Shown in pieces: positions 3,868-36,329 of a DNA stretch of 36,329 nt. Position 1 is the stretch's first letter. Each line of letters begins with the position of its first letter. Both the position numbers and the translations under genes were made by a program. The notes below the pieces were generated by a model. The model saw only the letters and a list, made by a program, of their open reading frames with translations, was not told the DNA's origin and searched no databases. Source of the stretch: an uncultured Bacilli bacterium (GTDB lineage: Bacteria > Bacillota_I > Bacilli_A > RF39 > UBA660); the NCBI GenBank assembly GCA_944358945.1, contig CALVSH010000080.1:1-36329 (forward strand), in the 5' to 3' direction.

Positions 3868-6828
3868 CTAAACATCTACAATAACAGCTGTACCATGACC
3901 TCCTAATTTATTTTGTACCCAGGATCTTACATCTTCATCTTTTACGAAAACTTCTAAATTTGAAGTACCATTAAACATATTTACATAATTAGTTACAGCT
4001 GAGAAATCTGCATTTCTAAAATCAAGCTTTCTTAAACTGATACAACCATTAAACATATGAGATACGCTTGTTACATTGGAAGTATCAAAACTACTCAAAT
4101 CCAAACTACTCAAAAAACCACACCCATTAAACATACCGGAAAAATCTGTTATGTTAGACGTATTAAAATTACTAACATCTAAACTAATCAAAGAGCTACA
4201 ACCAGAAAACATAGATGCCATTTTAATAACTTTTTCAGTATTAAAATTTTTTAAATCTAAGCTTTCTAAACTAGAACAATAATTAAACATACTACTCATA
4301 TCAGTCACTTTAGAAGTATCAAAACTACTCAAATCAAGTTTAGCCAAACTACTACATTGATTAAACATGGTAGACATATTTTTAACCTTTGAGGTATTAA
4401 AATTACTAACATCAAGTTCTATCAAGCGACTACAACCAGAAAACATACGAACCATAGTAGTTACACTAGAAGTATCAAATTGACTAAGATCAAGTTCTAC
4501 TAAACTACCACAACCTGCAAACATCCATTCCATAGAGGTTACCTTTGAAGTATCAAAACTACTAACATCTAAACTTTCTACACTAGAACAAGAACCAAAC
4601 ATATGAGACATATTAGTTACATTTGAGGTATTAAAGTTACTGACATCAAACTCACTTAAATGACTACAGCCAGAAAACATAAACTGCATATCATTAACTT
4701 TTGATGTATTAAAATGAATTAAAGGTAAAGCAGTTAAAGAATTACAACCCCGAAACATAAATCCCATATTTGTAACATTACTTGTATCAAAAGTAGATAT
4801 ATCTAAATTTTCAAGGTGATTACAACCATCAAACATGAAAGACATATTAGTAACTTTCGAAGTACGAAAACTACTTAAATTCAATTCTAATAAACTGCTA
4901 CAACCAGAAAACATATTTGCCATATTGGTTACATTAAAAGTATTAAAGCTACTCACATCTAAACTTGCCAAACTACTACAATTCCAAAACATACCATACA
5001 TAGTAGTAACTTTAGAGGTGTCCAGTTCACCAATACTAAGCTCTAATAAATTTGTACAACCACGAAACATCCCCTGCATAATTGTTACTTTAGATGTATT
5101 AAAGTTACTAATATTTAAAGTACTTAAATTAGTACAACCATAAAACATATTTAACATATTTGTAACATTTGAAGTATCAAAATTATTTAAATTAATATTG
5201 ATTACCCCAGTAAAATTTTCAAACAAAGAAGCACTAGTAGAATTTGCGATGACTCCTCCTCGACCACAAATAGTAACTTTATACGTGCCATTTTCACTTC
5301 CATCATCTTCTAGATAGGCAATCACACTTCTATCTTCTGCTTGTGAGGCATCCCAAGAATAGATTGCTGTATCAGAAATATCCGTATTAGTTTTTACCAC
5401 TATACTGGTGATATCTGCTCTATCATATTCACTTGTCCACCAATCCCTTCCCTTCATGATAGGATCCCCTTGTTCACTGATTACGCCATCCATAGACTTA
5501 GCTAACTCTATCTTAGACCATTTCGCCCTCAAAGTAACATTCTCTTCAGGCATCACAAAATAATCACTACCTATTTTTTTGACTCCATCAGTAATTACTT
5601 CCCATCCTTGAAAGATATAACCTTTACAACTTGGTTCTTCCTCTGTTATTTCTACGGTATCAAATACTGACTGAGCTTCGCTACTTGGAATATTTTCTAC
5701 ACTACTTCCTTCAGGAGCATTTCCATCATAAATAACTTGATATTTCTCTGCCAATGTTGGAGTTAAATTACTACTCACATCTTCAGTTTGATTTTCCATT
5801 TTTGATATTACTTCTTCGCTCTTGTTAGTAGGATATACTCCATCCTGTCCAATATACTCATCTTTTAAAGACAAATCCATCATTAACTTAGCTTTCCGAC
5901 CCGATAAATAATTAAGAATTGTCCAAGTTATTTTTTGTACGCCATTCTCTTCCGTCAGTGTTACTTCTCCATCGCTTACTTTATTATCATCGACACTGTT
6001 CAACGTATAATAATCGTTATCTATATAATCAACAATTTGAAATTCTTCATAGGGAATGGGAGTGATACTTGATTCTCCTAATACTTCTCCTAAATTATCC
6101 TGAAAAGCTAAATACTGATTATCACTAACTTCTTTTAGTTGATTGATAATTGTATCTCCCATTTCGTATTGAATGGCATTTACTGTTAAATAAGGATATG
6201 TCTCTTTTAAATATTTATACTCTACTACCTGATTAGGATTACCCTCATATGGATAACCATCTGTTAGAAACAGCATCACTACTTCTCTATTATCTTGTTT
6301 CTGATAACCTTGTAGTAGTTCATCAACCTTTAAAAAAGCATTATAGTAATTAGTAGAATTACCAACCTGTAAATTATTTATTTCATTTATTAAAATATCT
6401 TTATCATTGGTAAAGTCAGTGTGTATAGTTGCGTAAGAATTGAATTCTATTAAGGAAATACGATTATTAGCATTTGATAATATATCATTAATAAAACTGG
6501 TAGAATCAGTCTTTACTTGATTAAGTTTATCTCCTTCCATAGACCCTGAGGTATCCACGACAAAAATAATATCACTAGCCTCTTCTTTAGACATTAAAGT
6601 AGTATCGACATCAAATGTTACTCTAGCCTTACCCTTACTAATCCACTTAGCACTCTTCTCTACTTGCCATGAACCTTCTTCTTTGTTCTCATAATTTGTA
6701 TTCTCTGACGTTATAATAACACTAGAAATTGGCGCAGATATAGCATAAGCATATGACATAGAACAAATAAAAATCATTACCACTAATAAAACTCCTGCCA
6801 CTATCTCTTTTTGATACTTTCTCATCAT
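3868..6828 (-). CDS. Large secreted VWA / InlB-type / BspA-like (DUF285) repeat surface protein
   Basis: The 986-residue protein has a signal peptide or anchor (residues 8-29, ending SYAYA). A von Willebrand A domain (about 84-265) carries an intact MIDAS: DTSGS at 92-96, Thr159 and Asp190 in LTDG. A Listeria-Bacteroides (InlB-type) beta repeat follows at about 363-437 (GYIFQGWEV...VTLRAKW), then a short linker domain and 16 tandem 26-residue BspA/DUF285 repeats (549-964), each built on DTSxVTxMxxMFxGCxSLxxLDLS. Such proteins bind host or bacterial ligands at the surface; the intact MIDAS suggests metal-dependent binding. No LPXTG motif or C-terminal membrane tail is present (it ends GTAVIVDV), so anchoring would be by the uncleaved N-terminus or non-covalent. 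Two consecutive ATG codons follow AAGGAG; either could start it. A putative invertible promoter lies just upstream. Confidence 0.9.
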   Translation of the reverse strand: MMRKYQKEIVAGVLLVVMIFICSMSYAYAISAPISSVIITSENTNYENKEEGSWQVEKSAKWISKGKARVTFDVDTTLMSKEEASDIIFVVDTSGSMEGDKLNQVKTDSTSFINDILSNANNRISLIEFNSYATIHTDFTNDKDILINEINNLQVGNSTNYYNAFLKVDELLQGYQKQDNREVVMLFLTDGYPYEGNPNQVVEYKYLKETYPYLTVNAIQYEMGDTIINQLKEVSDNQYLAFQDNLGEVLGESSITPIPYEEFQIVDYIDNDYYTLNSVDDNKVSDGEVTLTEENGVQKITWTILNYLSGRKAKLMMDLSLKDEYIGQDGVYPTNKSEEVISKMENQTEDVSSNLTPTLAEKYQVIYDGNAPEGSSVENIPSSEAQSVFDTVEITEEEPSCKGYIFQGWEVITDGVKKIGSDYFVMPEENVTLRAKWSKIELAKSMDGVISEQGDPIMKGRDWWTSEYDRADITSIVVKTNTDISDTAIYSWDASQAEDRSVIAYLEDDGSENGTYKVTICGRGGVIANSTSASLFENFTGVININLNNFDTSNVTNMLNMFYGCTNLSTLNISNFNTSKVTIMQGMFRGCTNLLELSIGELDTSKVTTMYGMFWNCSSLASLDVSSFNTFNVTNMANMFSGCSSLLELNLSSFRTSKVTNMSFMFDGCNHLENLDISTFDTSNVTNMGFMFRGCNSLTALPLIHFNTSKVNDMQFMFSGCSHLSEFDVSNFNTSNVTNMSHMFGSCSSVESLDVSSFDTSKVTSMEWMFAGCGSLVELDLSQFDTSSVTTMVRMFSGCSRLIELDVSNFNTSKVKNMSTMFNQCSSLAKLDLSSFDTSKVTDMSSMFNYCSSLESLDLKNFNTEKVIKMASMFSGCSSLISLDVSNFNTSNITDFSGMFNGCGFLSSLDLSSFDTSNVTSVSHMFNGCISLRKLDFRNADFSAVTNYVNMFNGTSNLEVFVKDEDVRSWVQNKLGGHGTAVIVDV
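3937..5184 (-). repeat. 16 tandem 78-bp units encoding BspA/DUF285 repeats
   Basis: The region encodes 16 consecutive 26-residue units with the core DTSxVTxMxxMFxGCxSL. The last unit is degenerate (NADFSAVTNYVNMFNG, lacking the Cys). Units differ at many codons, so the array is diverged rather than freshly amplified, but it is still a likely substrate for repeat-number change. The period also produces spurious antisense open frames at 4076-4282 and 4835-5143. Confidence 0.9.
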
Positions 6829-6859
6829 AAAAACTCCTTGATATAACTACATCACAAAA

Positions 6860-6884
6860 TCACAAAGGTTGATACTTTATGATT
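6860..6884 (+). repeat. Left arm of the inverted repeat
   Basis: Positions 6864-6884 are the exact reverse complement of 7128-7148 (21 of 21 bases). With one mismatch the match extends outward by TCA to 6860, giving 24 of 25. On the minus strand the arm lies within the predicted 5' leader of the surface-protein mRNA. Confidence 0.9.
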
Positions 6885-6893
6885 TAGCCTTGA

Positions 6894-6922
6894 AATATAA
6901 GAGTTTTAGATAATTTGACCAA
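6894..6922 (-). promoter_or_regulatory. Leftward promoter for the surface-protein gene, inside the inverted-repeat segment
   Basis: The minus strand has TTGGTC (6917-6922), a 17-base spacer and TATATT (6894-6899). The predicted start of transcription is near 6887, just inside the left arm. The leader to the ATG at 6828 would be about 60 nt and includes the whole left arm. Confidence 0.5.
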
Positions 6923-7062
6923 AAAATTGACTAAAAAACATTCGACAAAATTTTTACTCTCTCGTTGTTTTTATAAGCAATAAGTGACTGAAAATTTGAC
7001 TAATTAAAATATAATTTTATATAAAATTCAAATATTTTTTCTAAACTAAAAAGTTAAAATAA

Positions 7063-7091
7063 TTGAAAAAACACCAAATATAGTGTATATT
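7063..7091 (+). promoter_or_regulatory. Rightward promoter-like pair inside the inverted-repeat segment
   Basis: TTGAAA (7063-7068), a 17-base spacer and TATATT (7086-7091) would start RNA near 7098. That RNA would run through the right arm and stop at the hairpin 7157-7190, giving a transcript of about 90 nt. After inversion this pair would face the surface gene instead. The region is very AT-rich, so chance is possible. Confidence 0.35.
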
Positions 7092-7127
7092 TAGTGTAGA
7101 AAAGATAGAAAAAGTAGACATATTTAC

Positions 7128-7152
7128 AATCATAAAGTATCAACCTTTATGA
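7128..7152 (-). repeat. Right arm of the inverted repeat
   Basis: The plus strand reads AATCATAAAGTATCAACC and on, identical to what the minus strand reads at the left arm (21 perfect bases at 7128-7148, 24 of 25 to 7152). It stops just before the terminator at 7157-7190. Confidence 0.9.
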
Positions 7153-7156
7153 AAAC

Positions 7157-7190
7157 AAAAGACTACAGAAAAAATTTCTGAAGTCTTTTT
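7157..7190. terminator. Bidirectional intrinsic terminator after the CDF pair
   Basis: The stem 7160-7170 / 7176-7186 (AGACTACAGAA with TTCTGAAGTCT, one internal mismatch) is followed by T-runs on both strands. It ends the leftward CDF operon and would also stop rightward transcription out of the inverted-repeat segment. Confidence 0.8.
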
Positions 7191-12539: not shown

Positions 12540-12568
12540 ATTATATCATATTTACACGATTTTTTCTA
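12540..12568 (-). promoter_or_regulatory. Promoter of the dnaG-rpoD-trmK operon
   Basis: On the minus strand TAGAAA (12563-12568) is followed after 17 bases by TGA-preceded TATAAT (12540-12545), an extended -10. It overlaps the last codon and stop of the upstream unknown gene, so the replication/transcription operon can be driven separately. Confidence 0.6.
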
Positions 12569-13027
12569 TATTTTATAACTCTTTTGTTTACTTCTTTTCA
12601 CCTCAGAAATCATATCACGACAAAAAGCATTCATTAAAGTATTAGAATACCAAATATCTTTAATAACTTCTGAATCCATAACTTTTCCTTGCTTCTGATT
12701 AAAAATAAAATTTGCCATATCTAAATAATAATTCATACTAAATAAACTTAAAGGATAAATTCTTTGATAATTATTATCGTCTAAATAAGAATTTAATTGA
12801 TATTGAACATCTAAACAATTAATACAAATTCCTCGTAACATAGGATTCCATTGTTGCTCTAAGTCACTTGCTCTAAAATAGTCAACAGAATAGTACTCTT
12901 TATGTTTTTCTAATAATTTAATATTAGTATCAATTCTTGTTTTTACCTGCGTAAAACTATCAACACCAGTATCAGTATATTTTTCATATTCTTTTAATAA
13001 TTCATCACTTTCTTGAAATAATTTCAA
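12566..13027 (-). CDS. Unrecognised small helical protein, last of a five-gene cluster
   Basis: The 153-residue soluble protein has no signal or membrane segment and is predicted mostly helical. The start codon is TTG at 13027, supported by AGGTGATATA just before it; there is no in-frame ATG for a long stretch. Residues about 78-106 (LDDNNYQRIYPLSLFSMNYYLDMANFIFN) resemble the DNYQEIxxLGxFC segment of the genes at 13062 and 13654, so it is probably a diverged paralog. It has several tyrosines and a basic tail (KRSKQKSYKI). I do not recognise the family. It is followed by dnaG, whose promoter overlaps its 3' end. Confidence 0.75.
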   Translation of the reverse strand: MKLFQESDELLKEYEKYTDTGVDSFTQVKTRIDTNIKLLEKHKEYYSVDYFRASDLEQQWNPMLRGICINCLDVQYQLNSYLDDNNYQRIYPLSLFSMNYYLDMANFIFNQKQGKVMDSEVIKDIWYSNTLMNAFCRDMISEVKRSKQKSYKI

Positions 13028-13061
13028 TATATCACCTAACCTCTTCTTTTTTATTATAATT

Positions 13062-13649
13062 TTATTTTTTAATTTTTGTTTTTTGATTATCTAAATCATT
13101 AATATAACACTCAGCTTTATGAGTACAAAAATCCCAAACTAAGTTAGTAGATTGTTCAATATCACTAACAAAGGATGGATGATACATATCTTCAGACCCT
13201 TGATTAATATTATCGTAAATAGCGTCAACACTTAAGCCAGCTCTTCTTATAGTATCAACAAAAACCTGATTGCAAAAGTCCCCTAACCGACTAATCTCTT
13301 GATAATTATCAGAAGTAAGTTCTTGTAAAAAATCAGACTGTAAAGAATAAAAAGTTTTACATATATCAATACAAAACTCCATCGACAATATCTCACCCTC
13401 TAGTGCTTCCACTTTCGGAATTTCCCAAATTAAAGGTGGAATAACTAACATATAATAGAAAGAAATCTTAAATTTTTCTAGTTTTGTTTTTCGAATACTC
13501 TCTTCCCAGGATGTAATCTGTTCGGAAATATCATCACAAAAAACTTCTTGTTGATACGTAGCATCTTCTAAATTAGAGACTTCACTATCAGATACAATAT
13601 AATTTAAATAAGCTTCTCTTACTTCCTCTTCATCTCGAAATAACCCCAT
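13062..13649 (-). CDS. Unrecognised helical protein (DNYQEI-type paralog)
   Basis: The protein is 195 residues from the ATG at 13649, which follows GGTGATTTC; an ATG 15 bases upstream has no ribosome binding site. It is acidic in the N-terminal half (MGLFRDEEEVREAY, EVFCDDISEQITSWEESI), with a short hydrophobic stretch MLVIPPLIW at about 73-81 that is too short to be a clear membrane helix. TSDNYQEISRLGDFC (about 126-140) is shared with NQDNYQEIEKLGCFC of the next gene upstream, and both have a FCDDIS or SCDDVS motif at about residue 38 or 30. The two are therefore paralogs. The function is unknown. It starts four bases after the stop of the upstream gene, implying coupled translation. Confidence 0.8.
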   Translation of the reverse strand: MGLFRDEEEVREAYLNYIVSDSEVSNLEDATYQQEVFCDDISEQITSWEESIRKTKLEKFKISFYYMLVIPPLIWEIPKVEALEGEILSMEFCIDICKTFYSLQSDFLQELTSDNYQEISRLGDFCNQVFVDTIRRAGLSVDAIYDNINQGSEDMYHPSFVSDIEQSTNLVWDFCTHKAECYINDLDNQKTKIKK

Positions 13650-13653
13650 GAAA

Positions 13654-14238
13654 TCACCTGCCATTTTTTATAAACAACTTCTCATTTTTGTAATCAGATT
13701 GATGCACTTCACCCATCTTCTCATCACGAAAAGTCAAAAAATTACCAATTGCTGTTAAAACATTATCAAACGTTGATGGATCAAAACGGCGATCAAATCC
13801 TTCTTTTATATTATATCCCGAAATAATATCTGCTTGATTAATATAATCAATAACTTCTTTCCCATAATCAAAACAAAAACATCCTAACTTTTCTATTTCT
13901 TGATAATTATCTTGGTTAACTTCTGAATGTAATTCCTTAATAGTATAATACAATTTATACATAAATCCATATCGAATCTTACTTGCTTCATTTTGACTAT
14001 GACGAACAACATAATATTTAGAAATAGAAAGTCGTCCACCTAATAATTTTATAGCGGCATCACTAAAGAAATTACTATGATCTAAATCCAATAAAGCATC
14101 ACCAAGAAAAATACAATAATCACTCAACCGATCCGAAACATCATCACAACTATCTGAAGGATTAAAAACTTCATAATCAGAATAAGAATTTTTAAGATCA
14201 TCATAAGAAAGATATAAACTAAATTTATTTTCTAGCAT
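13654..14238 (-). CDS. Unrecognised helical protein (DNYQEI-type paralog)
   Basis: The 194-residue protein is predicted soluble and helical. Shared features with the downstream gene are an N-terminal LSYDDLKNSYSDYEV segment matching EEEVREAYLNYIV, SCDDVSDRLSDY matching FCDDISEQITSW, and NQDNYQEIEKLGCFCFD (about 122-138). After that comes a region ending FDPSTFDNVL, matching YHPSFVSDI. The protein is rich in Asp, Tyr and Ser. It overlaps the upstream gene by seven bases and has AGAAGG eight bases before its ATG. I cannot assign a function. The conservation of three blocks between neighbours indicates local duplication followed by strong divergence. Confidence 0.8.
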   Translation of the reverse strand: MLENKFSLYLSYDDLKNSYSDYEVFNPSDSCDDVSDRLSDYCIFLGDALLDLDHSNFFSDAAIKLLGGRLSISKYYVVRHSQNEASKIRYGFMYKLYYTIKELHSEVNQDNYQEIEKLGCFCFDYGKEVIDYINQADIISGYNIKEGFDRRFDPSTFDNVLTAIGNFLTFRDEKMGEVHQSDYKNEKLFIKNGR

Positions 14239-14663
14239 AATGTCAACCTTCTTCTTGAATAGATATAATCATCAATAAAATCAAAAAAAGCATCAACCGA
14301 AGTATTTACTTCATCTAAAGATAACCTATTAGTAACTAAATTTTCATAGGCCAAGCTAGTCTCTGAAAACATATCATCTATAAACGGTAACAAATCACAA
14401 ACTAAGAAAGTATTATCCAAAAAATATTCCTCGTTCTGAAACACTTCATACTGTTTTTTAAATTTATCAAAAACACTTGCACCGCTAATATTGATATCTT
14501 CCATAACACTATTTTTATCTGAATTCATTTTATTTAAATTTATTCTTTCATTAGAATTTTCAATACCACGTTCAATATCACCAAACAAGTCTTTACTAAT
14601 TTTCTCATATAAATAATTATTAACAAATAATTCTCTATATTCATCCTTTGTCTTATATAACAC
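14232..14663 (-). CDS. Unrecognised small acidic protein, GTG start
   Basis: The 143-residue protein has a GTG start at 14663, seven bases after an AGGGGG site; no alternative ATG precedes the DEYRELF segment. It is predicted soluble and helical with a low-complexity Asn/Ser/Glu region (about 33-55) and a hydrophobic-helix pair in the second half (FLVCDLLPFIDDMF and VDAFFDFIDDYIY). The opening KTKDEYRELFVNNYLYE resembles the openings of the neighbouring cluster members. It overlaps the next gene by seven bases. The function is unknown. Confidence 0.7.
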   Translation of the reverse strand: MLYKTKDEYRELFVNNYLYEKISKDLFGDIERGIENSNERINLNKMNSDKNSVMEDINISGASVFDKFKKQYEVFQNEEYFLDNTFLVCDLLPFIDDMFSETSLAYENLVTNRLSLDEVNTSVDAFFDFIDDYIYSRRRLTLC

Positions 14664-14681
14664 AACTCTACCCCCTAAGAA

Positions 14682-15200
14682 TTATTTTTTTATCTTTACA
14701 TTCGCTATTGTTTCTACATGAGATATCATACCATCATAAAAATCTGAAAATGCTTCTCTTGCCTCTATTACGTCATCTAAATAAAGACAAGGAAACGAAG
14801 TTAAATACTTATCTTTCTCTGCTATTGTTTGATCAATATTCATAAATTGCCAAAATATGAACTTTTCCATATTACTAAGTGCTTTAGAATTTAACATCAT
14901 TTGTGCTTCGTATACTTGCAGATAATAATCATGAAATTCTAAACAAATATTCATCCCTAAGCATAGTAACTCTCTTCTATTTTTATAATAACACAAATCA
15001 GTGTCACCACACAGTAAACCTTTCATCTTCTCGTAAAACATAAACTTTTCATTACGCAAATACTCTTTAGTATAAAATCTACCTTTAGAATCAATGACAT
15101 CACAAGCTTCCAAATCACAAACTAAATCTTGATAAGGGTAACCATGCTCCCTAAATTCTAAAAACATCTTTATATAATTTTTTTTATCATTTATAAGCAT
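14682..15200 (-). CDS. Unrecognised small protein, first of the five-gene cluster
   Basis: This 172-residue soluble protein contains six Cys (including LVCDLEACDVID and GLLCGDTDLCYY) without a clear zinc-finger spacing. It is predicted helical, with aromatic-rich segments ICLEFHDYYLQVYEAQMML and FIFWQFMNID. The C-terminal part LDDVIEAREAFSDFYDGMISHVETI resembles the C-terminal helices of its neighbours in pattern, but I cannot show clear homology. It begins ten bases after yqeH with GAGGAG before the ATG, so the five genes are probably co-transcribed with yqeG-yqeH. I do not recognise the family. Confidence 0.75.
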   Translation of the reverse strand: MLINDKKNYIKMFLEFREHGYPYQDLVCDLEACDVIDSKGRFYTKEYLRNEKFMFYEKMKGLLCGDTDLCYYKNRRELLCLGMNICLEFHDYYLQVYEAQMMLNSKALSNMEKFIFWQFMNIDQTIAEKDKYLTSFPCLYLDDVIEAREAFSDFYDGMISHVETIANVKIKK

Positions 15201-30369: not shown

Positions 30370-31695
30370 TTAATTTTTATAATAAATCGCAAAATCCTCA
30401 TAAGAATCGACTTTTTTATAAGAATCCATTACATATTCTACAATCGCTTTATTAAATTGATTATATGGATTATCATTACGATAAAAAACTAAATTAACAA
30501 TAATATAAACATCATCCATATTTTTTATTTTATTTATCATTTTTTCATCCCCATGATAACCAAAGTTACCATCCATAAAAAGATCAAAATAAGTAATATC
30601 CTCTCCTCTACTAGTTTTATACTGCATAGCATTAGGGGATAAAATCAACTTATTATCATATTGATCAAAAAACTCAAAATATTCAATAGATTTCTGATAC
30701 TCTTCTTTAGCACACAAAGTATACTGAAATCCTAAAATATCAGAAGCCCAGACTGGTTTTAGTAAAACACAAAAACTAATAAACAACAAAACAGAATATA
30801 AAACAGATAAAAAAACTATTAACCCATAATAATAATTTTTCTTAATAGGAATAAAATCTAATATTTGTAATACAAAACAAATAGAATAAATCGCAAAATG
30901 ATGAAAATCAAACAATGGAATCATAAAACTAAATCCCATAATCAAATAACAATTATGAATATCTTTTTTATTCTTTATAGTGATAATAATCTGAATAATC
31001 AAAAGAAAAATACTAAAAAAGAAAGATAGAGAAAAAGGACGACTATTATCACTCGAAAAATCTAAAAGTCCTAAAAAACATAAATCAATAAATGGATATA
31101 AAGCATCATTCCATAAAAGATAAATAAGAAAGATAGTACAAGGAACAACTACTCCCACCGCTCTACGTAACAATTTTTTAAAATCTCTAAAATAATAAAT
31201 AATAGAAGGAATAATTAGAAATAATCCAAATGTATGCTTACTCAAAATTGCACATCCTATTACAAAACCAATTAAATAATCTTTATCTGGATATTTTTTT
31301 TCTAAATATAAAAGAACTATTAACATAAATAATGCCATAAAATTATAAGTAGCATTAATTCCTAAAAAGTTAAATAAACAAATACAAAGTAATAAAATAT
31401 AAGTTTTCTTACCATACATTTCAAATAAAAAATAAAACATAATAGTAACTAAAATACTCTGTTCAATAACAAACATTAAATAATTATCAAATATAAACAA
31501 CCCTAATGACATAACGAAAACATATAAAGGCGTAGAAATAATATTAAAATCCAAATAAGGAATCTGCCCATTAACAATAGCGTGACTAAACGCATAATTA
31601 TTAAGTGGATCACCATAAGTATTAGAAAATCCAAAAAACTCATAAATGCAAAAAACAAAGATAAAAATAAACAAATATCGTATCCACTTTTTCAT
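30370..31695 (-). CDS. GT-C-type membrane glycosyltransferase-like protein (array copy 5)
   Basis: The 441-residue protein has about ten membrane helices and a soluble C-terminal domain (about 325-441). The first extracytoplasmic loop carries D29 (YGDPLNNYAFSHAI) and D49 in IPYLDFN, the layout of catalytic/metal Asp residues in the PMT/ArnT (GT39/GT83-like) superfamily. Helix-loop motifs DYLIGFVIGCAILSKHTFGLF and FIDLCFLGLLDFSSDNS are shared with the other four copies. The C-terminal domain has ITYFDLFMDGNFGYHGDEKMI. It would transfer a sugar from a lipid carrier to an extracytoplasmic acceptor; donor and acceptor are unknown. It starts two bases after the previous gene with GGAGGAG upstream and is last before ftsA. 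Confidence 0.8.
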   Translation of the reverse strand: MKKWIRYLFIFIFVFCIYEFFGFSNTYGDPLNNYAFSHAIVNGQIPYLDFNIISTPLYVFVMSLGLFIFDNYLMFVIEQSILVTIMFYFLFEMYGKKTYILLLCICLFNFLGINATYNFMALFMLIVLLYLEKKYPDKDYLIGFVIGCAILSKHTFGLFLIIPSIIYYFRDFKKLLRRAVGVVVPCTIFLIYLLWNDALYPFIDLCFLGLLDFSSDNSRPFSLSFFFSIFLLIIQIIITIKNKKDIHNCYLIMGFSFMIPLFDFHHFAIYSICFVLQILDFIPIKKNYYYGLIVFLSVLYSVLLFISFCVLLKPVWASDILGFQYTLCAKEEYQKSIEYFEFFDQYDNKLILSPNAMQYKTSRGEDITYFDLFMDGNFGYHGDEKMINKIKNMDDVYIIVNLVFYRNDNPYNQFNKAIVEYVMDSYKKVDSYEDFAIYYKN

Positions 31696-31697
31696 AC

Positions 31698-33023
31698 TTA
31701 CTCCTCCAATACATAAACTTCATAAAAATCAACAGTTTGAATTTTCTTACCATGTTCTAAAACATATTCCAAAACCATAGGATCCGTCTGATTATGAACA
31801 GTCTCATTGGGATTAATTAAAAATAAAGTATCATCATCCGTCTTCTTAACTTCAGCAAGTAACTTTCTACTTCCCTGATACCCTAAATTTCCCTGATTAA
31901 TTAAATCCAAATATCCAACATCTTTATCATTTATAATTTTAAAATAATAAGAATCAGAACTTAAAAACAAAATTTCTCTATCTTTATTTTTATTAAGAAA
32001 ACGATTCATCTTTTTTGTAAATTCTAATCTATCATGATTAATAAATCTCATCTCAAAATGATTAACTGTATTCGGATAATAACGCATATCAAAATCGTTA
32101 TTTATTGCTGTAATAAAAGCTAAAACCAAAACACAAACAATACTAAGAACAGCATAATTAACATATTTTTTCTTGGTATTTTTACAAACTAATAGTAAAA
32201 ATGCCCAGAAAGCATAAATCAAATGAAATAAATCAACAATTGGTACAACAATACTATAAAAACATAAAACATAATAATTAAGAACATCTTTAGGGTTTTT
32301 CTTTATATAATAAATGGTAAATAAAAGGCTAATAAGAAAGAAAACCATATAGATATTAAAAATTTCACTATTACCAGAAAAATCAAATAATCCTAAAATA
32401 CATAAATTAATAAAAGAAGAAAAACTATTTGTAGTAATCAAATAAATAACAAAAACTAAAATAGGTATCAAGCATCCTACTACTCTTTTTAAAAACACTT
32501 TCTTTTCTTTAAAATAATACAAACTTGGAAAAAGCAAACATAATCCAACCGTATGCTTTGTAAGAATAGTAATACCTAACAAGAAACCTATCAAATAATG
32601 ACTCCATGAATATTTAGAAATTACCTCTTTTTCCATATAACACAACAATACCAATAAAATAAATAAAAATAAATTATAACTAGGAAAAGTAGCATTCACT
32701 GGAAAAAAGAAAAACAAGAAAAATAACCACATCTTATCCTGATACATCTTCTCTAACAAAAATAAACACCCGGTTAATATCAAAGCGTTAGTAATATGAA
32801 AAACTAACATACTTGACCCAGACAAATAAAATGGTAAAGACATAAGCCATGGATAAAAAGGAGGTATTATCATGTTAAAATCCACATAAGGAAGTAGTCC
32901 CTGATACAAATTATTACTAAATCCATAATTCCAAATCTCATCTAAATTAATAGGACTACAAACAAGATTAAAGATTAAAATTACTAAAAAGATAAAAACA
33001 TATTTAATTACTTTCTTTATCAT
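31698..33023 (-). CDS. GT-C-type membrane glycosyltransferase-like protein (array copy 4)
   Basis: The 441-residue paralog opens with a membrane helix (8-25) and then NLDEIWNYGFSNNLYQGLLPYVDFN (D28, E29, D48). The DE pair at 28-29 is closer to the classic GT-C DE motif than in the neighbours. Shared blocks are HYLIGFLLGITILTKHTVGL, FINLCILGLFDFSGNS, and a C-terminal soluble domain with VGYLDLINQGNLGYQGSRKLL and VLEYVLEHGKKIQTVDFYEVYVLE. The start follows AAGGGAG. As in the other copies, sequence divergence is high in the membrane helices while the two loops and the GNxGYxG motif are kept, suggesting related but not identical sugar or acceptor choice. Confidence 0.8.
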   Translation of the reverse strand: MIKKVIKYVFIFLVILIFNLVCSPINLDEIWNYGFSNNLYQGLLPYVDFNMIIPPFYPWLMSLPFYLSGSSMLVFHITNALILTGCLFLLEKMYQDKMWLFFLFFFFPVNATFPSYNLFLFILLVLLCYMEKEVISKYSWSHYLIGFLLGITILTKHTVGLCLLFPSLYYFKEKKVFLKRVVGCLIPILVFVIYLITTNSFSSFINLCILGLFDFSGNSEIFNIYMVFFLISLLFTIYYIKKNPKDVLNYYVLCFYSIVVPIVDLFHLIYAFWAFLLLVCKNTKKKYVNYAVLSIVCVLVLAFITAINNDFDMRYYPNTVNHFEMRFINHDRLEFTKKMNRFLNKNKDREILFLSSDSYYFKIINDKDVGYLDLINQGNLGYQGSRKLLAEVKKTDDDTLFLINPNETVHNQTDPMVLEYVLEHGKKIQTVDFYEVYVLEE

Positions 33024-33034
33024 AACTAACTCCC

Positions 33035-34390
33035 TTACTCAAAATAATACACTTCATACACTCCTATAGACTTTACTTTTTCTCCACGCTTCATAATATA
33101 ATCTACTGCATCTTTCAAATACTGTTGTGGTGGAGACGGCATCTCATAGGCCTCTTTATCAATAACAAAATAACCACTATCTACACTTTTCAACCTAGAA
33201 ATAATTTTAGCCGTACCATCATAACCATAATTCCCATAATTAGGTAAATCAAAATAGCTAATATCTAAATTACTTTTTATTTTATAAAAATAATTTTCAC
33301 TACCCCTTAAAAAATAAATAACATCATCATCTAAAGTCTCTATATACTGATTCAACTGTTCAACAACTTTACTATATTTTTCAGAAATCAAACTAAACTC
33401 AAAATTAGGATAGTTTATTATCCTTAAATCTGTAAAATACATATTTTGTATCACAAACCAAATAACGCTTAAGGCAAGAACAAAGAAAATAAAATATTTG
33501 TAAATTTCTATTTGAATAGAACCATCTAGCAAAAGCAAAATAAAAAAGCCTGCCAAGAATAAGGAAACATGATAATAATCAATAATAGGATAAACGCAAC
33601 TAGCAAAAAGTAATACATAGTAATTACAAATATCTTTAGGCTTTTTAACAATTCGAACAACAAGAACAATCATAACTAACATAAAACAAAGAAAATAAAA
33701 CCAATCAACATGTAAATTACTATGACCAAAATCAAACAACCCTAAAAAACACAAGTCAACAAAAGAAGAAAAACTTCCTTGTACCAATAAAACCAATAAA
33801 ACAAAACAAACTGGTATCAAAAAACCTAAAATTCTTTTTCCAATCTTTTTATAATCAACAAACAAATAATATAAAGAAGCAACTGCCAACAATCCTCCAA
33901 CTGTCTGTTTTGTTAAAAAAGCACATCCTAATAAAACTCCAATCAAATAATCACTTTTATTCTTTTTTTCACAATAGATAAGGAGTAATAGAAAAAACAA
34001 CAACAAGAAATTGTATCCTGGAAACATAACCGATACCATCGCAATAGGAAAAGGAATTGACAATAATATTAAATAAATCCATGTCTTATTACCAATTAAA
34101 CGAAATAAAACTGCGAAAAACAGAGTCAATAATAAGGCTTGTTCTAAATAAAAAACTAAAATAGAAGAATCAAAAAATAAGAAAATAGAATATAACCAAG
34201 GAGCAAGAGGTGGAATCACTAAATTAAAATCAACATATGGAATCTCACCTCTAGTAATGGCATAACTAAATCCAAAATTGACATAGCTATCCCCTCTAGT
34301 CAAATTGTACGCTAACACCAAGCAATAAAAGAAATAACAAAACAAAAATAAATATTTTAAGTTTTCCTTCTTAAAAATTTTACTTTTCAT
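33035..34390 (-). CDS. GT-C-type membrane glycosyltransferase-like protein (array copy 3)
   Basis: The 451-residue paralog has a loop with D34 (RGDSYVNFGFSYAITRGEIPYVDFN) and D54. About ten helices follow, with DYLIGVLLGCAFLTKQTVGGL and FVDLCFLGLFDFGHSN. The C-terminal soluble domain (about 335-451) contains ISYFDLPNYGNYGYDGTAKII and ends VYEVYYFE. The start at 34390 overlaps the upstream gene by 11 bases. The best purine-rich site (GGGAGGGGG) is about 12 bases upstream, so translation probably depends on coupling. By superfamily it uses a polyprenyl-phosphate sugar outside the membrane; the specific product is unknown. Confidence 0.8.
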   Translation of the reverse strand: MKSKIFKKENLKYLFLFCYFFYCLVLAYNLTRGDSYVNFGFSYAITRGEIPYVDFNLVIPPLAPWLYSIFLFFDSSILVFYLEQALLLTLFFAVLFRLIGNKTWIYLILLSIPFPIAMVSVMFPGYNFLLLFFLLLLIYCEKKNKSDYLIGVLLGCAFLTKQTVGGLLAVASLYYLFVDYKKIGKRILGFLIPVCFVLLVLLVQGSFSSFVDLCFLGLFDFGHSNLHVDWFYFLCFMLVMIVLVVRIVKKPKDICNYYVLLFASCVYPIIDYYHVSLFLAGFFILLLLDGSIQIEIYKYFIFFVLALSVIWFVIQNMYFTDLRIINYPNFEFSLISEKYSKVVEQLNQYIETLDDDVIYFLRGSENYFYKIKSNLDISYFDLPNYGNYGYDGTAKIISRLKSVDSGYFVIDKEAYEMPSPPQQYLKDAVDYIMKRGEKVKSIGVYEVYYFE

Positions 34391-35708
34391 AAATTAAATA
34401 ATCCCCCTCCCGAGCAACTAAAGAAAAATGTTTCATAATATAATCACAAACCTCATATAAAAAATCTCCATCTTCCCCTATTTCCTTCATCTCTTGTTGA
34501 TTAATAATATAAAGATCATCAGACTCCTTCACTCTATCTATTACTTTACTACTTCCATTATAACCGTAATTTCCATGTAAGAAAACTAAAAAATAATTAA
34601 CATCTAAATCATTCCCCGTATAAATAAAACTATTTTTAGTCGACAACAAAACAGGCACTCTATCTTTCTCATAGTATTTCAAAAACACCTGATTCATCTC
34701 AGAAAGAATTTCATATTGATTAGGCTGAACCAAGTAGTATTCTAAATTAGGTAAAAAATTTAATCTCTTACTAGAAAATCCTCGATAACTATAAAAATTA
34801 ATAAAACAAAGAAAAATACTTAAAATCAAAAACAAATAACAGACACCTTTACTAACATTTACTTTAGTCATGATATATACCAATAAACTACACAAAAATA
34901 ATAAAAAGTGATAACTATCAAAAAGTGGAACTACGAAAGAAAAAGTCGCAAGCGTATAATATGCTTCAATTTTTCTATCTTTTTTAAAGACATAAAGAAA
35001 TAAAAGAATAAATGCAATAATAGAAAGATAAAAATGAATAGTTTTTCCACTACTATTTTTAGAAAAATCAAATAGTCCAAAGAAGCATAAATCAAGAAAA
35101 GCCATAAAACTATGAGTAACAAGTAAATAAGTAAGAAATACCAAGCACGGAATAACAAATCCTATAAATCTTCGTCCCAGTTTTTTGAAATCCTTAAAAC
35201 AATATACAATACTAGCTAGTAGAAAAAAGATACCAATCGTCTGCTTTGTCAAAACACTAAGTCCTAAAACAAATCCAATCAAATAATCACTCTTATGATT
35301 TTTCTCAAGATAAACTAACAAAATAAAAAGACAAAAACAAAATAAATTATAAGTAGGAATAATCGTATGTAAGAAAGGAAACAATAAAGCAAATAAAACA
35401 ATAAAACTACGTTGTTGAATTAATTGAAACAACAAATAAAAAGTAAAAGTAAGTACCAAGGACCAACCAAAAACATACCATAAATAATTATTACTAAAAA
35501 TTAAAAAGATAGAAAAGAAAAAAGCACAAAAAGGAGTAGATACTGTATTAAAATCAAGATAAGGCACCTCTCCTCTAGCTATAGCGTAACTAAAACTATA
35601 ATTCCAAAAAGAATCATAGGAATGATTATAAAAACTAAAAACTAAAAGCACAAAAAAGAAAAACAAAAACAAAAAAACATAATTATGATACTTTCTGATA
35701 TATTTCAT
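34380..35708 (-). CDS. GT-C-type membrane glycosyltransferase-like protein (array copy 2)
   Basis: The 442-residue paralog has first-loop residues D32 (YDSFWNYSFSYAIARGEVPYLDFN) and D52. Then come DYLIGFVLGLSVLTKQTIGIF, FLDLCFFGLFDFSKNSSG and a C-terminal domain with VNYFLVFLHGNYGYNGSSKVI. It starts with GGTGGGAGAGT-ATG inside the last 26 bases of the upstream copy. The repeated long overlaps between these genes indicate one tightly coupled operon, probably arisen by tandem duplication. Confidence 0.8.
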   Translation of the reverse strand: MKYIRKYHNYVFLFLFFFFVLLVFSFYNHSYDSFWNYSFSYAIARGEVPYLDFNTVSTPFCAFFFSIFLIFSNNYLWYVFGWSLVLTFTFYLLFQLIQQRSFIVLFALLFPFLHTIIPTYNLFCFCLFILLVYLEKNHKSDYLIGFVLGLSVLTKQTIGIFFLLASIVYCFKDFKKLGRRFIGFVIPCLVFLTYLLVTHSFMAFLDLCFFGLFDFSKNSSGKTIHFYLSIIAFILLFLYVFKKDRKIEAYYTLATFSFVVPLFDSYHFLLFLCSLLVYIMTKVNVSKGVCYLFLILSIFLCFINFYSYRGFSSKRLNFLPNLEYYLVQPNQYEILSEMNQVFLKYYEKDRVPVLLSTKNSFIYTGNDLDVNYFLVFLHGNYGYNGSSKVIDRVKESDDLYIINQQEMKEIGEDGDFLYEVCDYIMKHFSLVAREGDYLIYEK

Positions 35709-36329
35709 ACTCTCCCACCTTATCTATGATTTGATAATTTCTTAAAACATAGTCAATAACATCCATATTAAATTGACTATTAGAATCAACATTTTGATAC
35801 TCAAAAGAGGATAGAATAAAATAAGCATTTTCTTCTTTTTTTAAAGATTTTAATAATTTCTCAGTACCATGATAACCATGATTTCCGTAATTCAACAAAT
35901 CATAATGCGTAATATCTAACTGATTACTAATTTTAAAAAAGTAAGCATCATTTGTTAAAAATATAATATTTTTATCACTGTTTTTCTTTATATAATCAGA
36001 TAATACCAAGATATTTTTTTCCATTTTTTGACTAATCTTTATCATTTCAAAATTAGAAAAGCTAGCTATATGTGGTATTTCGAAGCGATGACAAACCATC
36101 ATAAAAACAGGATAAATAATAACCGATAAAACAAAACTAAAACCAGTTAACCACTTCTTAGAAAAAGACACCCTAGAAAAGATAAGATAACAAAAAACAA
36201 ACAAAAATAGACCTACATGATAATGATCAAAAAGTGGATATGAAATAGTAGAAAAGCAAAGTAAATATCCCGTCAACAATTTATTATCCTTTTTAATCAA
36301 AAAATAAAGTAAAACAAAAACACAAAAAA
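35683..36329 (-). CDS. GT-C-type membrane glycosyltransferase-like protein (array copy 1), 5' part beyond the right edge
   Basis: Only the C-terminal half (about 215 residues) is in the window. The frame continues open through 36329 with membrane-type residues and no stop, and the family length of about 440 residues means the first half lies outside. A TTG at 36300 is not a likely true start. The visible part has the last helices (GYLLCFSTISYPLFDHYHVGLFLFVF) and the conserved C-terminal domain with ITHYDLLNYGNHGYHGTEKLL and VIDYVLRNYQIIDKVGEYEIYQ. It is clearly paralogous to the four following genes. Confidence 0.8.
   Translation of the reverse strand, partial: FCVFVLLYFLIKKDNKLLTGYLLCFSTISYPLFDHYHVGLFLFVFCYLIFSRVSFSKKWLTGFSFVLSVIIYPVFMMVCHRFEIPHIASFSNFEMIKISQKMEKNILVLSDYIKKNSDKNIIFLTNDAYFFKISNQLDITHYDLLNYGNHGYHGTEKLLKSLKKEENAYFILSSFEYQNVDSNSQFNMDVIDYVLRNYQIIDKVGEYEIYQKVS

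Follow-up and report, generated by a model that had tools for sequence, protein, structure and literature searches.

A probable phase-variable promoter inverton, member of a multi-locus family, upstream of a VWA/PARCEL surface-protein gene in an uncultured Bacilli bacterium

The window, by which we mean the whole 36,329-nt stretch of DNA analysed here (contig C80 of G000, a 69%-complete metagenome bin of 102 contigs), carries on its minus strand a gene for a 986-aa secreted or surface protein (3868-6828) that combines a VWA domain with PARCEL (TIGR02167/DUF285) repeats. The locus adjoins sigA and trmK. Upstream of the gene, two arms (6859-6883 and 7129-7153) form a near-perfect inverted pair around 245 bp of non-coding DNA. 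The ribosome-binding site, AAGGAG, is read directly on the minus strand at 6834-6839, between the proximal arm and the start codon. Elsewhere the window encodes a protein of 176 aa whose N-terminus bears a pilin-like methylation motif (PF07963; 308-838), five consecutive small ORFs of 143-200 aa that look like a lineage-specific cluster (12566-15200), and a local family expansion in which five or more paralogues in tandem specify multi-membrane proteins, each about 440-450 aa long, that share a PYxDFN-type motif (30370-36327).

With a perfect stretch of 21 nt, the arm pair is the longest perfect inverted repeat of the window for loops of 60-1000 nt; in 60 dinucleotide shuffles, used as a chance control, the longest reached 17 nt, with a mean of 13.6. 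Matches to the arm occur in the window at these two places only, where 0.01 would be expected with up to three mismatches. A first-pass annotation of this DNA had described perfect repeats at 6864-6884 and 7128-7148, extendable to 6860-6884 and 7128-7152, around 243 nt of non-coding sequence. These repeats are indeed complementary, at 21/21 and 24/25 positions respectively, and no gene-sized ORF lies between them. Comparing copies gives a consensus core site built as a palindrome, ATCATAAAG, a 7-bp spacer and CTYTATGAT, with half-sites of 9 bp. The gene-proximal site (6859-6883, plus strand) reads ATCACAAAG-GTTGATA-CTTTATGAT, that is half-site, spacer, half-site; the gene-distal one (7129-7153), read on the minus strand, is TTCATAAAG-GTTGATA-CTTTATGAT. 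Both arms thus carry the spacer GTTGATA. They differ in their outer half-sites, while each half-site stays within one mismatch of the consensus, and the half-sites of the proximal site recur at 18 listed places in the genome. All listed core-site copies share this 9-7-9 architecture of inverted half-sites around a spacer that falls within the 6-8 bp of tyrosine-recombinase sites. Judged by this architecture, each arm of the window is a core site of the tyrosine-recombinase type.

The interior is organized as well. From the surface gene outward it contains an accessory direct repeat, Q1 (6915-6933, plus strand, TTGACC-N6-TTGACTA), a candidate arm-type integrase site; a second repeat, Q2 (6984-7002, plus strand, GTGACT-N6-TTGACTA); and a promoter, P (7063-7091, plus strand), with TTGAAA at 7063-7068 separated by 17 nt from TATATT at 7086-7091. 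P agrees with the sigma-70 consensus at 10 of 12 positions, a match which by itself is not above chance; it is because the element is conserved that we assign it as a promoter. Sixteen invertons from three species align collinearly, in the order core, Q1, variable region, Q2, P, core, and 15 of them (the exception being that of C37) have a TTG-type -35 box 17 nt from TATATT, so that the segment holds a predicted promoter with a definite direction relative to the flanking gene. The promoter motif TATATTTAGTGTAGAAAAGA has seven matches in the genome with up to three mismatches, all inside invertons. Likewise, TTGACY-N6-TTGACTA has 12 exact matches genome-wide, 11 of them inside invertons.

As assembled, P is directed away from the surface gene, towards a terminator-like hairpin just beyond the distal arm (7157-7189, plus strand; -12.9 kcal/mol, z -5.8; absent from the list of a stricter terminator scan). 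This suggests that the assembled orientation is OFF, and that flipping the segment would switch the gene on. The promoter had previously been proposed to be TTGGTC-17-TATATT, pointing at the surface gene. Such a sequence does exist on the minus strand (6894-6922, with GACCAA at 6917-6922 and AATATA at 6894-6899), and its spacing is common to the close paralogue at C67, but not to most other invertons. It is not kept in most sister invertons, its -35 box lies within Q1, and the conserved promoter is that of the plus strand, facing away from the gene.

The segment had been presented as a single inverton placed before one surface gene. The segment is real; it belongs, however, to a multi-locus family with a probably shared recombinase. 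Two pattern searches of the genome for the same arms recovered five further inverted pairs, making six: five with arms 263-290 bp apart (C80, C11, C67, C36 and C93) and one, at C37, with arms separated by 1.3 kb. Single or broken copies of the core site were also found at C39, C46, C60, C72 and C77. Most core sites have a VWA/PARCEL paralogue directly downstream (a protein search of the genome yielded 14 matches), the exceptions being C46, a lone site, and C11, whose gene side now borders on a fragment of a transposase that inspection suggests to be IS110-like. At C77 (L051, 4010-4034) a lone intact core site stands upstream of a VWA paralogue without P or partner arm, as a decayed switch. Matches within cdsA (C54 and orthologues in several genomes) were set aside as conserved coding sequence, not arms. 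The sister species G012 has 13 inverton pairs; G000 and G012 were the only genomes to show this multi-locus form.

The spacers are informative. Tyrosine recombinases require an identical overlap sequence in both recombining partners. Among 20 arm pairs from G000, G012 and G003, 18 have identical spacers, with 12 spacer types overall; random pairing yields a mean of 2.1 identical pairs and a maximum of 10 in 100,000 trials. The two non-identical pairs are both in G012 and differ by one base each. Identity within the pair, together with variety between loci, is the pattern expected for recombining sites and not for operators. Locus-specific spacers also suggest how inverted sites at separate loci avoid cross-recombination.

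The observation that no recombinase is encoded in the window was right, and the suggestion that one should be sought elsewhere in the genome, among tyrosine and serine enzymes, was fruitful. The 1.3-kb arm pair of C37 encloses the gene of a 359-aa tyrosine recombinase, with the domains Phage_int_SAM_3 and Phage_integrase. Both at C37 and in G008 the recombinase ORF lies between Q1 and Q2. R198, K243, H305, R308, H331 and Y341 are invariant across six homologues; we take these residues to be the catalytic R, K, HxxR, H and Y. The best solved relative of the enzyme is the Tn1549 integrase, by sequence and by fold. In an AlphaFold model built from a six-sequence alignment (mean pLDDT 76, pTM 0.49), residues 8-64 form a beta-beta-beta-alpha domain; they have no match to a Pfam arm-binding domain. 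As modelled, this N-terminal domain would fit an arm-binding role, and the TTGACY-N6-TTGACTA repeats, specific to invertons, are putative arm-type sites. From its position within the same arms, the C37 recombinase is probably the cognate enzyme of the invertons. Other tyrosine recombinases of the genome are encoded on C5 and C55 (XerC/D-sized) and on C78, where a second enzyme of the same family (L053, 238-1371), 43% identical, lies directly upstream of signal-peptidase-like and camelysin-like genes; no core site was found at its flanks, its contig beginning nearby. A serine resolvase (PF00239) had no match in this 69%-complete genome, and a recombinase of the C37 family was not found in the 72%-complete assembly of G012.

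In the sister species G003, the orthologue of the C37 enzyme also sits between the same arms. Enclosure of the recombinase by inverted arms extends well beyond this genus. A scan of named genomes gave 80 relatives, mostly from Lachnospiraceae, Oscillospiraceae, other Clostridia and Bacilli; in 50 of the 70 that had sufficient flanking DNA, the recombinase lies between perfect inverted repeats of 16 bp or more, as against 0.4% when upstream and downstream regions were mismatched, and direct repeats in 6 of the same 70. An internal palindrome is present in 46 of the arms flanking relatives, and the arm is present twice, inverted, in the 37 relatives examined. In Ruminococcus bicirculans 80/3 the site pattern matches the genome at two places only, both beside the recombinase, and in Blautia massiliensis GD8 the pattern of that strain's own site likewise matches at two places. 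Flanking inverted arms in most relatives indicate that the presumably self-inverting recombinase module is the common form. In one Oscillospiraceae relative (L151), the contig start (1-99) is an inverted copy of the flank past the opposite arm (1481-1579); this 99-bp overlap may be an assembly trace of both orientations, and is only suggestive.

More distant relatives (33-35%) occur on Enterococcus raffinosus megaplasmids, some with flanking inverted repeats. Comparing the megaplasmids of E. raffinosus strains did not reveal an inverted orientation; a 1.5-kb length difference between strains looks like an inserted element, present in many other Enterococcus plasmids. No long flanking repeat was found at the relatives in Ruminococcus albus pRUMAL02 or Bacteroides finegoldii. 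On Enterococcus gilvus pCR1A (L225, 3498-5638) the genes that immediately follow a distant relative encode WxL surface proteins; this relative, too, lacks long inverted repeats at its flanks. Relatives of the surface protein itself were not found in viral contigs.

Comparing copies of the inverton brings both orientations to light. Over a 116-nt stretch of arm and outer flank, C37 and C39 are 95.7% identical, and yet their inner ends are opposite, the Q1 end in one facing the P end in the other. Similarly, C37 and C60 have a VWA leader flank in common and opposite inner ends. Among the loci of G000, G012, G008 and G010 at which the gene could be placed together with P, or with the inner end, P points towards the VWA gene at five (C37, C45 and C6 of G012, G008, and C3 of G010) and away from it at about 13. 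At the syntenic sigA-trmK locus, the inverton of G008 bears a recombinase, has P directed at the VWA gene and has a distal arm disrupted by the loss of 2 bp. That of G012 is small and, as in the window, in the OFF orientation; its two spacers differ by one base, and its contig stops before the gene. What is compared here are paralogues and sister species, not a single locus of a single strain, and binned assemblies may orient short invertible segments arbitrarily.

The same comparisons inform us about descent. C60 retains the last codons of the recombinase and so descends, through an internal deletion, from an inverton that bore it. To judge by this remnant, recombinase loss has produced at least one of the small invertons. 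At C39 a deletion fused the first codons of the recombinase (MGRK) in frame with internal sequence of a VWA paralogue (L046, 19055-19549, contig coordinates), apparently at the short shared sequence GGAAGAAAAG. At C37 itself, P is without its -35 box, removed by a 12-bp deletion, so that its ON orientation may be weak.

Taken together, 6859-7153 is in our view, with a probability of about 0.86, a phase-variable promoter inverton of a multi-locus switch system. The integrase of the Tn1549/Tn916 kind from C37 would bind the 9-bp half-sites, and perhaps the Q repeats, and would exchange strands across the matching 7-bp spacer, inverting the 245-bp interior; as assembled, P would fire into the terminator, away from the surface gene. 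This one enzyme would serve every inverton of the genome in trans. Sitting as it does in its own inverton, before another VWA paralogue, it would make cells differ in the surface paralogues that they express. The initial proposal of a phase-variable promoter inverton therefore stands for its inversion-type arms, interior promoter, surface gene and recombinase encoded elsewhere; it needs amending in that the conserved promoter faces away, hence the OFF state, and in that this is no lone switch.

Other explanations deserve to be weighed. Every arm is palindromic and close to a promoter, and arms recur by many paralogous genes, as they would if they were operators of a shared regulator flanking a fixed segment. 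An operator would explain neither a 7-bp centre that varies between loci while matching within the pair, nor a tyrosine recombinase between the same arms in G000 and G003, nor the swapped inner ends at paralogous loci, so that we hold this reading to be very improbable. The coexistence at several loci of recombinase-bearing, autonomous copies with recombinase-less ones, and the resemblance of C60 to an internal deletion of the C37 type, might instead recall a small MITE-like transposable element, the arms being its terminal repeats and not parts of a regulated switch. This account is made improbable by the placement of nearly all copies in front of VWA paralogues, by the constant order of promoter and accessory repeats, and by spacers matched within each pair.

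If the segment does invert, one may ask whether it is through the C37 enzyme, and whether it still does so. The three further tyrosine recombinases of the genome might do the work, be it an XerC/D-like protein (C5 or C55) or the C78 paralogue. We consider this an improbable substitute, because none but the C37 type lies between these arms. The G003 orthologue shows the same enclosure, and so do 50 of the 70 wider relatives, each of which has arms of its own sequence. The window inverton could also have been functional once and now be locked or inactive: decayed relatives are known (the broken distal arm of G008, C77 with one site and no promoter, the deleted C39), and the window arms do differ in their outer half-sites. 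However, its spacers are identical, its half-sites have one mismatch at most, neither the two Q pairs nor P show damage, and the genome encodes a recombinase that retains every catalytic residue. Such loss of function is unlikely.

How does the arrangement compare with known switches? In the Vpma/Vsa systems of Mycoplasma a tyrosine recombinase switches a family of paralogous surface genes; there, clustered genes shuffle to a promoter, whereas here the genes are dispersed, each with its own inverton. With the integrases of Tn1549 and Tn916 the C37 enzyme shares core-binding and catalytic domains and perhaps, as the model predicts, an N-terminal domain of beta-beta-beta-alpha fold; Tn1549 Int is its closest solved relative by sequence and fold. 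Those integrases serve the excision and integration of conjugative elements, while here the inverted core sites enclose just a promoter or a recombinase. Hin of Salmonella is a serine recombinase with a single locus. Its gene lies within the inverted segment (PMC5903667, PMC2784873), as does that of the C37 recombinase, while the window inverton itself is without the gene. In Bacteroides fragilis, Mpi acts in trans on many scattered invertible regions (PMC5903667), a situation to which ours would correspond, with one recombinase for many dispersed regions; Mpi, though, is a serine recombinase, the class not found in our 69%-complete genome. The likeness to Clostridioides difficile that had been put forward is loose: RecV, a tyrosine recombinase, acts in trans on several switches with repeats of about 20 bp before surface genes, as the C37 enzyme would here, but the cwpV promoter lies outside the inverted segment and switching is proposed to occur via terminator formation (PMC2784873), while the conserved promoter described here lies inside, so that the arrangement is not of the RecV/cwpV attenuator kind. 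Close, too, are the promoter invertons of gut bacteria found by PhaseFinder-type scans, in which short inverted repeats enclose a promoter that precedes surface genes, and a tyrosine recombinase is nearby or shared. In one such study, Clostridia inverton group 139 is linked to tyrosine invertase group 35 (PMC11892184), which is possibly of the same broad family as the C37 recombinase. What differs here is the presence, in an uncultured Bacilli lineage, of at least six invertons in one genome with one core-site type, locus-specific spacers, accessory repeats and a recombinase within an inverton.

Invertons, master recombinases (Mpi, RecV) and a recombinase inside its segment (Hin) are thus already known. 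Their combination here, with a tyrosine recombinase in an inverton of its own, derivatives at paralogous loci that lack the recombinase, and spacers specific to the locus, seems new; the literature searched, mostly outside subscription papers, contained no description of it, which is weak evidence for novelty. If the reading as a multi-locus switch system is true, many promoter switches served by one tyrosine recombinase diversify a large family of surface proteins in an uncultured gut lineage. The coexistence of autonomous with recombinase-less copies would then suggest how multi-locus phase variation grows from a single self-inverting module. Tentatively, and at somewhat less than even odds, we would generalize as follows: self-inverting recombinase modules, common in gut Firmicutes, might be a portable on/off cassette, multiplied in this Bacilli genus into an autonomous copy and many recombinase-less mini-invertons, separated by a spacer code, so that one recombinase would drive independent switching of a large surface-protein family. 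The presence of cultured strains in the wider family (R. bicirculans 80/3, B. massiliensis GD8) makes the idea directly testable.

Finally, a small ORF of C39 (L046, 19864-20085, contig coordinates) resembles, by inspection only, a small acid-soluble spore protein of the alpha/beta type, a likeness that would point to a lineage able to form spores.
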